Source of the DNA: Myxococcales bacterium 68-20 | GTDB lineage: Bacteria > Myxococcota_A > Polyangia > Polyangiales > Polyangiaceae | NCBI GenBank assembly: GCA_001899635.1 | Contig: MKVQ01000048.1 | Location: 248,001-312,000, forward strand | DNA length: 64,000 bases | Direction: 5' to 3' | Shown: positions 40,907 through 45,319 of the stretch, in pieces | Numbering within the stretch: the stretch's first letter is position 1 | Layout: every line of letters begins with the position of its first letter | Position numbers and translations under genes: made by a program | Notes under the pieces: generated by a model | What the model was told of the DNA's origin: nothing | What the model saw: the letters and a program-made list of their open reading frames with translations, nothing else | Database searches by the model: none

Positions 40907-42040
40907 ATGAACGAGCCGGTCCGTCGGTTGCCGTTGCCTCACCACGATCGCGCAGAACGAGCCCGCGGCTTCGCGGAAGCGCTTGGCGCTGCCAAGGGGA
41001 AGCATCTGCTCATCGCCCTCCGCGGGCATCCTGATCCCGACGGGATCGCGTCCGCGTTGGCACAGGCCCACATCGCGCAGCGGCTCGGCGTCGCGAAGAC
41101 GACCATCAGCTACTGCCACGAGCTCAGCCATCGCGAGAACCGCGCGCTCGTCAAGCTTCTCAACGTCGAGATGAAGAAGCTGAAGAACGTGCACGACCTC
41201 GCCGAGCCGGCGGACTTCGTCGGCCTCGTCGACGCGCACGATGTCGACCCGGAGATGATCGGCGTCGATCAGATCGAGCCGCTCACCATCGTCGACCACC
41301 ACCGTGCGCATGCCCCGCCGCGCGCGCGCTTCGTCGACATGCGAAACGACGTCGGCGCGACCGCGACGATCTTCGTCGAGTACCTCCAGGAGCTGTGCCC
41401 GCTCTCGGCCGACAGTGACGACGATCGCCGGATCGCGACCGCGCTCATGCATGGCCTCGCGACGGACACGGACGACTTCTCGCTCGCGCGCACGACGGAC
41501 TTCCGCGCCGCCGCGCAGCTCGCCGACATCTGCGATCGCGATCTCCTCCAGGATCTTTCCCGTCGCCTCATCGCGCCGAGCGCGATGGACGTCATCGCTC
41601 GCGCGCTCGCGGCCCTCGTCGTGCGCCGCAACTTCGCCATGGCCGGCGTCGGCTTCGTCTCCGAGAGCGAACGCGACACGATCGCGCAGGCCGCCGACTT
41701 CCTGATCCGCCGCGAGGACATCGACACGGTCGTCGTCTACGGCATCGTCGGCGATCGCTTCATCGAAGGATCGCTCCGCACCCACTCGCCGAGCGTCGAT
41801 CCGGCGGTATGGCTCGAGCAGGCGTTCGGTCACGACGAGCGCGGCAAGGCATACGGCGGTGGACGACGGGACAAGGGCGGCTTCCGCATCCCGATCGGCT
41901 TCCTCGGACGCGCCACCGATCGCGCCCAGCTCTGGGCGCTCGTCGAACACGCCGCACGCCAGGCGCTCCTGAAGCAGCTCGGCGAGGAGCCGCTGCCTTC
42001 GCTCGGGACGCAGGGCGGTATCCCTTCGAACGCCAGCTGA
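40907..42040 (+). CDS. DHH/DHHA1 phosphoesterase, NrnA-like (oligoribonuclease/PAP phosphatase)
   Basis: 377 residues; ATG 40907, preceded by AGGAG. DHH catalytic motifs: HPDPDGIASALA (His41, Asp43, Asp45), LVDAHD (Asp109) and VDHH (130-132), with GLATDTDDFS. The C-terminal DHHA1 domain ends with KAYGGGRRDKGGFRIPIGF, the Gly-rich substrate loop. NrnA enzymes degrade nanoRNA and 3'-phosphoadenosine 5'-phosphate; some family members cleave cyclic dinucleotides, so specificity is open. Followed 20 bases later by a formyltransferase-fold gene. Confidence 0.9.
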   Translation: MNEPVRRLPLPHHDRAERARGFAEALGAAKGKHLLIALRGHPDPDGIASALAQAHIAQRLGVAKTTISYCHELSHRENRALVKLLNVEMKKLKNVHDLAEPADFVGLVDAHDVDPEMIGVDQIEPLTIVDHHRAHAPPRARFVDMRNDVGATATIFVEYLQELCPLSADSDDDRRIATALMHGLATDTDDFSLARTTDFRAAAQLADICDRDLLQDLSRRLIAPSAMDVIARALAALVVRRNFAMAGVGFVSESERDTIAQAADFLIRREDIDTVVVYGIVGDRFIEGSLRTHSPSVDPAVWLEQAFGHDERGKAYGGGRRDKGGFRIPIGFLGRATDRAQLWALVEHAARQALLKQLGEEPLPSLGTQGGIPSNAS

Positions 42041-42060
42041 TCCCGGCGCCTGCGAACGAC

Positions 42061-42951
42061 ATGCGCATCGCGTTCGTGGGTCTGCCGCTGGCGGCGCTCC
42101 TCCTCGCGCAGGACGGACACACCATCGTGTGGGCGGGGATCTGCCGCCGCGACGCGATCGGCACGCGACGGCTGAAGAAGCTGCTCGGTGACGACCGCGT
42201 CGTGGTCGTCCCCGATCTCGCGAAGAGCGCTCGCGCGATCCGCGCTGCAAAGCCGGATCTGATCGTGAGCTGGTTCTGGACGAAGAACATCCCCCGCTCG
42301 GTCCGCGAAGCCGCGCCGCTCGGGGCGTTCGGGGTTCATCCCTCCCTCCTGCCGCGCCACCGTGGCCCCGATCCGACCTTCTGGGCGATCGACTCGGGAG
42401 ATCGCGAGACGGGCGTCACCGCTCACATGCTCGAAGACGAGTACGACACCGGTGCAATCCTCGGGCAGAAGCGCATCGCGATCGATCCTTCGTGGAGCGC
42501 GTGGCGGCTCGCGAAGAAGCTCGATCGGCCGTCGCTCGCGCTCCTCCGCGAGACGGCCCTTGCCTACGCACGCGGCGAGCCGCCGACCCCACGCGGACAA
42601 GACGAGGCGCTCGCGACCGAAGCGCCAGCACCGGAGGACGAGCTGCTCGAGATCCGCTGGGCGGATCCAGCCGAGAAGATCGCGCGACGCGTCCGGGCCG
42701 CGAGCCCGTGGCCGGGAGCCTTCACCGAGGTGGCAGGCACGGTGGTCACCCTCACGAGCGCACGAGCCACGGACGACGTCCCGCGCGCGCTCGACCAGGG
42801 CGAGGCGTGCGTGCGCGGCGACGGCGTGGTGGTGGTCCGCGCGGGCGACGGCGGGGTGGAGCTCCTCGCCGGCCGGATCGAATACGACGATGCCGAGCGC
42901 GAGCTCGACGCGAACGCGCTCGCCGACCTCGTCCGCGCCACCGCGCACTGA
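42061..42951 (+). CDS. Formyltransferase-fold protein related to Met-tRNA formyltransferase
   Basis: 296 residues; ATG 42061 fits the family start (MRIAFVG). Has the family's HPSLLPRHRGPDPTFWAI motif with His93, ETGVTAHML and YDTGAIL with Asp129, plus an Fmt-like C-terminal segment (ASPWPGAF). The N-terminal nucleotide-binding part is shortened compared with Fmt. The usual catalytic Asn two residues before His93 is Gly91 (GVH instead of NxH), so formyl transfer may be altered or lost. Co-transcribed with the DHH gene. Role unknown. Confidence 0.75.
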   Translation: MRIAFVGLPLAALLLAQDGHTIVWAGICRRDAIGTRRLKKLLGDDRVVVVPDLAKSARAIRAAKPDLIVSWFWTKNIPRSVREAAPLGAFGVHPSLLPRHRGPDPTFWAIDSGDRETGVTAHMLEDEYDTGAILGQKRIAIDPSWSAWRLAKKLDRPSLALLRETALAYARGEPPTPRGQDEALATEAPAPEDELLEIRWADPAEKIARRVRAASPWPGAFTEVAGTVVTLTSARATDDVPRALDQGEACVRGDGVVVVRAGDGGVELLAGRIEYDDAERELDANALADLVRATAH

Positions 42952-43045: not shown

Positions 43046-43810
43046 TCAGACTCCCAGCAGCACGAACGAGGTCACGAGCGCGAGATCCGGGTTCGAGGAA
43101 TCGTCATGGCGGATCTTCAGCCGGTTGTGCACGCGATGAACCCCGCTCACGCGCTGAACCGCTTCACCGGCGACGCGCTTCGAGCGTCGATCGGGGACCG
43201 TGCCTTCGAGGGTCACGTCACCGCTCGCAACGCTGACCTCGATGTCGGACGCGTCGAGGTCATGGCAATGCCTCAGCGCGTAGCTCACGTCCATCTCGAC
43301 GCGAGGGTCCGGACGGTCCACGCGCTCCGGAGCACGCAGGGCGTCGATCATGCGTGAGACGCCCGCCCTCAAGCGACGCCAGAGGCTCTGCGGAGGGCGC
43401 TCGAGATACGCGAAGTACGGATCCGCCTGCGGCTCCTTGTAGACGAGCCACGGCCACGCTTCCTTCTCGTAGAGCGACGCATGGCTGGCGTTGACCGCGA
43501 TGACGCCGGGATGGGGCGCGCGGTGGTAGGCGTAGCTCCCCTCCTCCGGGTGGATGCTGGGACCGCATCCATATCCCCGCTCGTCGATCTCGGAGTTGCG
43601 CGTGTACGTGTCCCGCTGGTCGTACCAAGCGGTGCCGATCGCCCAGGGGCTCTGATTGATCAGGTTCAGTCGATCAGCGAGGCACTGACGATCACGCCGC
43701 TCGACGTCGGGGTCCCGCTCGATGCGGCTCGTACCGAACCGCTCGCGCTCCTCACGTTGGGCGTGATCCTGCCGTGTCGACTCGTCCCATCGATGATCGA
43801 TCGTTGCCAT
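43046..43810 (-). CDS. BON-domain protein
   Basis: 254 residues from ATG 43810 (MATIDHRWDE), chosen because the upstream frame is Arg-rich non-coding. The first ~60 residues are highly charged, and ~80-140 contain Trp/Tyr-rich SPWAIGTAWYDQRD and an RGYGCGPSIHPEEGSY stretch. The final ~70 residues are a BON domain: SYALRHCHDL, SVASGDVTLEGTVPD, AVQRVSGVHRVHNRL. BON domains bind lipid or membrane surfaces (OsmY-like). No signal peptide, so a cytoplasmic stress protein is likely. Confidence 0.8.
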   Translation of the reverse strand: MATIDHRWDESTRQDHAQREERERFGTSRIERDPDVERRDRQCLADRLNLINQSPWAIGTAWYDQRDTYTRNSEIDERGYGCGPSIHPEEGSYAYHRAPHPGVIAVNASHASLYEKEAWPWLVYKEPQADPYFAYLERPPQSLWRRLRAGVSRMIDALRAPERVDRPDPRVEMDVSYALRHCHDLDASDIEVSVASGDVTLEGTVPDRRSKRVAGEAVQRVSGVHRVHNRLKIRHDDSSNPDLALVTSFVLLGV

Positions 43811-44146
43811 CCAGCACCAGCTCACTGCGAAGCGCATGCCGATCGAAGGAGGCCTGGCTGAGAGCGCGGCGACGCGCGAATGCCGGTCGCGTCTGTCGTC
43901 CTGATGGGACGAATGTGCACCTCGTGTCGCACCTCGCCGCGCTCGAGGCGTGACCATGCGCCGCGGCGGAAGGTCTTCCTTGGGACACCGGGCCCCCGCC
44001 CATCCGCAGAGGAGGGCCCTCGGATGGCGTCGATTTTCCCGAGCGAAACGGACCGACGAAAGCGGTGTTTGTTTCGACCATACCGGTTCGCCTACGATGC
44101 GGTCGCGGCGCCTGCGGCGCACGCGAACCCCAGCTTCGAGGCGACA
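43811..44146. other. Divergent gap, no gene seen
   Basis: 336 bases between the BON gene and the PilZ gene, which point away from each other; promoters for both should lie here but no clear elements were recognised. The PilZ frame could be extended upstream to ATG 44024, adding a basic low-complexity N-terminus; judged less likely. Confidence 0.4.
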
Positions 44147-45319
44147 GTGAGCGATCCTCTTTCGACGTCACGCACGGCACGCGAGTCGCTCGCGCGCGGA
44201 CTCAATGCACTGCAGGCTGACCCGAGCGTACCGAGCCACCTCGTCGACCTTGCGGCCCCGATCGCGCAGGCGATGGGTGCACTCCACCAGCTCGAGCGAA
44301 CGAACCAGCTCACGCCTCATGCGGACGTCGCGCTGAACCACGTCCGAGGTGCGCTCGCGCAGCTCCAGGCTGCACCGGCGAACCACCCCGCAGTCAACGC
44401 AGCGCTCGAGTCCGTCGCGAAGTCGCTCTCGCTCGTGCACTCGCTGAGCCGCATGGCGAACGGTCCGGCTCCCGCTCCGCAACACGCCGCGCCCGCGCCT
44501 GCTCCGCAACACGCCGCGCCCGCGCCTGCTCCGCAACACGCCGCGCCCGCGCCTGCTCCTGCTCCGCACCACCCCGCGCCTGCGCCCGCTCCGCACCAAG
44601 CCGCGCCTGCACCTGCTCCGCAACCGGCGCCCGCGCCTGCTCCGCAACCGGCGCCCGCGCCCCAGGCGCTCAACGTGACCGCGGGGATGCCGGGCCAGAA
44701 CGCGGGGGCTTCACCTCGCGGCGGGACCGCCGGCATGGCCGCGCAGGCTCCTGCAGCGGGAGCGCAGCCGTCGTTTCCCCAGGCGCAGCCTGCTGGAGCG
44801 CCCGGCGGCTACGGGGCAGCGAACGTTGCGCGCGATCCGTTCGCGGCTCCCGATCCCTTCGCCTCTCCTCCGCCGGGAGTCGGACCGACCGGGGCACATC
44901 CGCAGGCACCTCCCGCGGGCGCACATCCCGGCGCAGTGAGCGGCAAGGCTGCGACGCCGAGCATGCCCGTCCCGGCTCCGCCCGCCGTCGGCAACATGCA
45001 GGTCATCGCGGCCGACCTCGGAGCGCACAGCCCGACCAACTTCTACAAGGGCCTCTCGGGCAACGACATCATCGATCACGGCGGCCTCTTCGTCTCGACG
45101 TACGTCGCGCCGAAGATCGGCACGCCGGTCCGGCTCAGGGTGTCGCTGCCGGGCGGCTACGAGTTCGAGGCGAACGCCGTCGTGAAGTGGACGCGCGATC
45201 TCGGCGGAGACGCGCTTCCTGGCTTCGGCGCGCAGTTCACGGCGATCACGCCCGAGGCACGCCAGCTCGTCTATCGCTACGTGCGCAACCGAGAGCCGAT
45301 CTTCCACGACGATCTCTGA
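44147..45319 (+). CDS. PilZ-domain protein with Pro/Ala-repeat linker
   Basis: 390 residues from GTG 44147 (ATG at 44024 would add 41 residues). Residues ~1-105 are helical. A repeated APAPQHA linker (~107-175), then a Pro/Gly/Ala-rich region to ~285. The last ~105 residues are a PilZ-like domain of the myxobacterial type (NDIIDHGGLFVSTY, LRVSLPGGYEFEANAVVKW, GFGAQF). The N-terminal Arg pair (RxxxR) that contacts cyclic-di-GMP is not visible, so it may be a non-binding member that acts as an adaptor. Cytoplasmic. Confidence 0.85.
   Translation: MSDPLSTSRTARESLARGLNALQADPSVPSHLVDLAAPIAQAMGALHQLERTNQLTPHADVALNHVRGALAQLQAAPANHPAVNAALESVAKSLSLVHSLSRMANGPAPAPQHAAPAPAPQHAAPAPAPQHAAPAPAPAPHHPAPAPAPHQAAPAPAPQPAPAPAPQPAPAPQALNVTAGMPGQNAGASPRGGTAGMAAQAPAAGAQPSFPQAQPAGAPGGYGAANVARDPFAAPDPFASPPPGVGPTGAHPQAPPAGAHPGAVSGKAATPSMPVPAPPAVGNMQVIAADLGAHSPTNFYKGLSGNDIIDHGGLFVSTYVAPKIGTPVRLRVSLPGGYEFEANAVVKWTRDLGGDALPGFGAQFTAITPEARQLVYRYVRNREPIFHDDL
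44474..44660 (+). repeat. 27-bp tandem repeat coding APQHAAPAP
   Basis: Three near-identical 27-base units begin at 44474, 44501 and 44528, followed by four degenerating units that keep the Pro/Ala rhythm to about 44660. In frame, so it shortens or lengthens the linker of the PilZ protein without breaking it. Confidence 0.8.

Follow-up and report, generated by a model that had tools for sequence, protein, structure and literature searches.

A formyltransferase-fold gene family of Polyangiales with glycine at the place of the catalytic asparagine

We analysed a window of 64,000 nucleotides of DNA from Myxococcales bacterium 68-20 and focused on a formyltransferase-fold gene and the genes around it. 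The features are listed with positions counted from the first nucleotide of the window.

40907..42040, plus strand: DHH-family phosphoesterase of 377 amino acids, 20 bp upstream of the formyltransferase gene (Pfam DHH, model, conserved residues).
42061 (ATG) to 42951 (stop), plus strand: formyltransferase-fold gene, 296 amino acids (Pfam domains, orthologs, tree, model).
42331..42333, plus strand: codon 91 of the formyltransferase gene, counted from the ATG at 42061; GGG (Gly), where relatives have an Asn codon.
43046-44122, minus strand: BON-domain frame between the formyltransferase and PilZ genes (54.2 bits).
44024..45319, plus strand: downstream PilZ-domain protein (Pfam PilZ 26.7 bits, cut-off 22.5); the ATG at 44024 is assumed, and a longer frame runs from 43880.

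A longer frame for the formyltransferase gene opens at 41809, inside the DHH gene, and homology to orthologs starts only at 42061. The 296-amino-acid protein exceeded the curated Pfam cut-offs for Formyl_trans_N (PF00551; 87.9 bits against 26.1) and Formyl_trans_C (PF02911; 44.1 bits against 21.1). No further Pfam domain was above cut-off in this protein, and it has no carrier or aldehyde dehydrogenase fusion of the kind found in 10-formyl-THF dehydrogenase (FDH). The motif GAFGVHPSLLPRHRG carries Gly91 at the place of the Asn and retains His93, and Asp129 lies within a DTG. Ser95 and Arg101 are also retained, and with Gly91 for Asn the catalytic Asn/His/Asp set is incomplete. The original prediction had named Gly91, His93 and Asp129, and its numbering was exact: residue 91 aligns with the Asn of E. 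coli ArnA and Fmt, and the alignment placed no Asn at this position of the window protein. None of the NCBIfam models that we compared assigned the protein to a known type. It scored 118.1 bits against PRK06988 (NF005414; cut-off 316), 110.2 against the Fmt model TIGR00460 (cut-off 201.5), 21.4 against the PurU model TIGR00655 (cut-off 285.95) and 44.7 against the PurN model, well below equivalog level. The score against the ArnA model NF005998 was 110.5 bits with a cut-off of 777, which a single domain cannot reach since the model describes the whole bifunctional protein.

The genome that contains the window (11.9 Mb in 52 contigs) has four PF00551 matches. A normal fmt lies elsewhere in it, as the original prediction required: a genuine Fmt is encoded separately on contig C5 (G000:C5; TIGR00460 280 bits, cut-off 201.5). 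A PurN above cut-off is encoded on C21 (237 bits), and a formylation-like domain opens a 1553-amino-acid frame on C48, the remainder of which looks like NRPS sequence. We found no PurU above cut-off in this genome, and formate-THF ligase is present. PurU varies within the genus, being above cut-off in G003 and G006 and not in the genome of the window. The other three PF00551 loci of the genome keep the Asn. Over the whole scan it was kept at 18 of 18 other formyltransferase-fold loci, including six of six PurU hydrolases. Another divergent formyltransferase-fold protein, encoded in G038 (L090, 949-1845), also has the Asn; it sits on a long branch and falls below the NCBIfam cut-offs of the models it matches.

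A homolog of the formyltransferase at an E-value of 1e-40 or better was present in 38 of 58 genomes of relatives, the genome of the window included. In a sample of the phylum, 30 of 282 genomes reached 1e-33; 28 of these, again counting our own, belong to Polyangiales and two to family f36. The combined set comprised 54 genomes of the order and the two f36 genomes. A search of genome contigs returned three loci, two from Labilithrix and one from Clostridiales (L007), the last being a PurN-like frame with Asn. Our survey of residue 91 covers the sampled Myxococcota, E. coli and L007. Among the full-length rows of the clade, residue 91 was Gly in 48 of 51 and Asn in three (L021, L036 and L037), and both f36 rows (L082 and L083) have Asn. 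Three genomes have partial copies that were kept out of the tree: G022, where the gene is split over contigs (L035 and L052), G018, where it is broken (L053), and G053, where it is truncated (L054). L035, L053 and L054 cover the motif, and all three have Gly. Because Gly recurs across independent genomes, Gly91 is not a sequencing error.

The clade of 51 rows had support of 100/99, and the residue-91 label required three changes on the tree, a number that was the same across the bootstrap range. With Asn in the outgroups, the simplest reading of the tree is a single basal change from Asn to Gly followed by two returns to Asn. These returns could instead reflect gene transfer; each amounts to two base changes. 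Conservation was scored in an alignment (A1) of 51 rows that includes L082 and L083; A1 lacks L047 and L051, which the tree contains. Mean column identity was 49%, and nine residues never varied in the 51 rows: H93, P94, S95, L97, P98, R101, G102, P105 and D129. Column 91 ranked 44th of 296 (entropy 0.32, median 1.75). Over 53 rows its codons were GGC (33), GGG (11), GGT (3), GGA (1), AAC (3) and AAT (2), and all four Gly synonyms are therefore in use.

We also estimated dN/dS by NG86 for 11 pairs of rows and found it to be below one in all of them. For the window gene and its two nearest relatives the ratios were 0.10 and 0.13 (dN 0.054 and dS 0.523 with L009; 0.070 and 0.521 with L010). Values of dN and dS for the other pairs were 0.049 and 0.374 (L009-L010), 0.088 and 0.412 (L046-L081), 0.167 and 1.367 (L015-L016), 0.170 and 1.117 (L077-L080), 0.147 and 0.606 (L014-L017), 0.184 and 0.691 (L013-L014), and 0.213 and 0.920 (L072-L078). 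The two pairs with Asn-bearing rows gave the highest ratios, 0.35 for L036-L037 (0.347 and 0.995) and 0.42 for L020-L021 (0.379 and 0.908). That the window gene is the sole fmt, or a decayed one, is ruled out by the separate Fmt and by dN/dS below one. Judging by codon use, dN/dS and conservation, position 91 is a maintained site and not a product of decay. The Gly91 trait is wider and better conserved than a view limited to the two genes of the window suggested, and among the matches listed in the open-licence literature we found no description of a Polyangiales Gly91 formyltransferase family.

A structure prediction returned the formyltransferase fold that had been anticipated for this protein. 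The model (pLDDT 96.9) matched ArnA (2bln) with a Z of 30.4 and an rmsd of 2.2 over 286 residues, Fmt (3tqq) with a Z of 30.4, and the hydrolase domain of FDH (4qpd) with a Z of 29.3. These Z values are too close to rank ArnA, Fmt and FDH by fold. Profile scores to the solved relatives were 183.8 bits for ArnA, 168.4 for Fmt and 116.9 for FDH. Among the solved relatives, the N-terminal formyltransferase domain of ArnA (UDP-L-Ara4N formyltransferase), which shares the two-domain architecture, accordingly has the highest profile score and is level with Fmt for the top fold match; the window protein retains the His and Asp of ArnA and has a similar S-aromatic loop. It differs from ArnA in having Gly91 rather than Asn and in standing alone, without the dehydrogenase half. 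With Fmt it shares the same two Pfam domains, but it lacks the Asn and is shorter in the segment between residues 30 and 55. The N-terminal domain of HypX, a CO-producing maturation factor of NiFe-hydrogenase, also has a 10-formyl-THF fold with His and Asp (Z 21.9 to 6j1g). HypX, however, carries a second, enoyl-CoA-hydratase-like domain, and the Ser of its triad is replaced by Asp80.

The original prediction suggested that the gene pair may serve a changed chemistry, for example with a different one-carbon donor or nucleotide target. It is borne out insofar as the genome encodes, besides its Fmt, another formyltransferase-fold protein whose active site is changed and conserved. A changed donor finds no support: His, Ser, Asp and the Arg do not vary in any of the 51 rows, and the modelled fold matches 10-formyl-THF enzymes with Z values of about 29-30.

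The closest parallel for the missing Asn is FDH (ALDH1L1), which also lacks this residue and has an HxSLLPxxxG motif with His, Ser, Arg and Asp (PMC4388273). According to this paper, Ile104 of FDH occupies the position at which FMT, ArnA and GART have an Asn termed crucial, and His106, Ser108 and Asp142 are said to possibly form a kind of triad. By motif position, FDH His106, Ser108, Asp142 and Arg114 correspond to His93, Ser95, Asp129 and Arg101 of the window protein. The window protein thus has the FDH-like combination of a His-Ser-Asp set with a residue other than Asn ahead of the motif, that residue being Gly91 and not Ile. Unlike the window protein, FDH has carrier and dehydrogenase domains, and its profile match is the more distant. 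The Asn-bearing neighbours L082 and L083, in a tree without an FDH sequence, suggest that the loss of Asn in our family was separate from that in FDH. As described in PMC6802093, FDH moves the formyl group from 10-formyl-THF to a phosphopantetheine thiol, and for HypX the thiol of CoA is proposed as the formyl acceptor. On these accounts (PMC4388273, PMC6802093), an enzyme of this fold may be active without the Asn, and in FDH the loss is paired with another acceptor.

These parallels raise the main rival to the reading that we prefer, namely that the protein acts like the hydrolase domain of FDH, with water or a thiol as formyl acceptor, and regenerates THF from 10-formyl-THF alongside PurU or in its place. 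Along with the matching residues and the fold match to 4qpd, this reading draws on the behaviour of Ile104 variants of FDH, which retained about 50% of the hydrolase activity as I104A and less than 10% as I104N (Reuland 2006, as quoted in PMC4388273), and on the genome of the window, with its formate-THF ligase and no PurU above cut-off. The six PurU loci, however, all retain the Asn, and hydrolysis therefore does not need its loss. The protein is also nearer by profile to ArnA and Fmt than to FDH, and three members of the clade have Asn. Had the gene taken the place of PurU, few genomes would be expected to carry both. Of the 38 genomes with the gene, 13 have PurU, as do 11 of the 20 that lack the gene (p 0.16; the PurU of G047, divided between two frames, was scored as present). 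This is no clear avoidance, and G003 and G006, of the same genus as the window, have both genes. Replacement of PurU is thus unsupported by co-occurrence. Taken together, we regard an FDH-like hydrolase as possible, though on the unlikely side.

The DHH protein exceeded the Pfam DHH cut-off (34.0 bits against 28.1). DHHA1 scored 18.8 bits, below its cut-off of 25.9, and the fold match spans residues 12-360. D43, D45, D109 and the D130-H131-H132 triplet were invariant in 38 of 38 DHH rows. The model (pLDDT 88.9) matched the catalytic domain of GdpP (5xsp, Z 28.4), TM1595 (5o25, 24.8) and mycobacterial NrnA (4ls9, 23.9), which are DHH-DHHA1 phosphodiesterases, and the protein has the Asp residues and the DHH triplet. 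An NrnA-like gene had been predicted, and a DHH-family gene is indeed present. NrnA-type proteins have His first in motif I and a C-terminal GGGH. The window DHH protein, in contrast, has Arg for the first His of motif I (residues 36-46) and GGGR at residues 317-320, and the replacement of the His and the GGGR both hold in its close homologs. Based on the model, the DHH protein is likely a nucleotide phosphodiesterase of GdpP/NrnA-like type.

We asked how firmly this gene is tied to the formyltransferase. In the window, the spacing of 20 bp on one strand indicates that the two genes are probably co-transcribed. In 22 of 54 genomes a DHH gene immediately precedes the formyltransferase gene on its strand; the adjacent DHH proteins are 70-97% identical to that of the window and their formyltransferases 51-91%. 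Among 58 relatives, 26 have both genes, 12 the formyltransferase alone, four a close DHH homolog alone and 16 neither (Fisher p 0.0007, kinship ignored). Adjacency and co-occurrence could be taken to mean that the two enzymes act in a single pathway whose chemistry is changed, in line with the original prediction. All 22 adjacent cases, however, belong to family f1; elsewhere in f1 the genes upstream include FtsE, FtsX and an M23 peptidase, and a NUDIX gene is near in f3-f6. Considering also that 12 relatives with the formyltransferase lack a close DHH homolog, we find the case for a working pair weak and a shared pathway highly improbable. An obligate pairing is ruled out by this distribution, and we conclude that the two genes are neighbours in certain genera, with no obligate tie between them.

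Among the other neighbours we used only frames with Pfam matches, since the frames run from stop to stop and some are spurious. The FtsE, FtsX and M23 peptidase genes upstream in other f1 genera (L079, 1252-3040; L062, 2563-3555) include a peptidase that we take to be EnvC-like. Families f3-f6 have a NUDIX hydrolase gene close to the formyltransferase gene (L058, 7060-8160, with matches in seven other loci), accompanied in places by a zinc-ribbon protein. The commonest neighbour was a PilZ-domain gene, which follows the formyltransferase gene on its strand in 33 of 54 genomes (32 by a scan within 2.5 kb, and G005 at about 2 kb downstream). It was found in 33 of 41 genomes of f1 and in none of 13 outside f1; the count leaves out a weak PilZ-like match that in L054 lies 4 kb from the gene. 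Of the f1 genomes without it, G008 and G010 had more than 3 kb in view and G012, G022, G111 and G188 at least 2.9 kb; in the other two, G018 has the broken copy and the sequence of G021 ends 58 bases on. The PilZ protein of the window scored 49.7 bits against TIGR02266, under the cut-off of 68.7, and has a long, low-complexity Pro/Ala linker. As read from their domains, the neighbouring genes do not point to a formyl acceptor or substrate.

PilZ is a regulatory type of domain, which together with the absent Asn could fit a protein that is no longer catalytic and instead senses or sequesters folates. Because the Asn is termed crucial in FMT, ArnA and GART (PMC4388273), its loss could equally mean lost activity, and the invariant residues of the family may serve binding without catalysis. 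Several observations nevertheless argue for an active protein. His93, Ser95 and Asp129 do not vary in 51 rows, the two returns to Asn given by the simplest reading of the tree fit continued catalysis, and in FDH the fold works without the Asn according to the same paper. We therefore consider a folate-binding pseudoenzyme to be quite unlikely.

We lean, without great confidence, towards the window gene encoding a working 10-formyl-THF-dependent enzyme of Fmt/ArnA two-domain architecture with an Asn-free site. Our data show the fold and architecture, the replacement of the Asn, the probable single origin of this change and its conservation, and from them we infer 10-formyl-THF binding, catalytic activity and a substitute for the Asn. 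In such an enzyme, the formyl group would be positioned and activated by His93, Ser95, Arg101 and Asp129, while the Asn that is thought to stabilise this group in relatives would be absent and Gly91 would leave its space free. The role of the Asn might be taken by His93, by a water molecule or by the acceptor itself, and the formyl group would then pass to an acceptor, which may differ from those of Fmt, PurN and ArnA. A broader and rather unlikely proposal is that of an Asn-free 10-formyl-THF class that arose in Polyangiales separately from animal FDH, in which the emptied space makes water or a thiol, and not an amine, the formyl acceptor, and in which the lineages that regained Asn reverted the reaction.

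The loss is notable given the crucial role ascribed to the Asn in those 10-formyl-THF transferases that have been studied best (PMC4388273). The family apparently lost this residue once, holds Gly under selection and has returned to Asn twice, which makes it a natural mutagenesis series. Close relatives that differ at this position (L020 with L021; L072 and L078 with L036 and L037) could reveal whether the residue matters for amine transfer, for hydrolysis or for neither.
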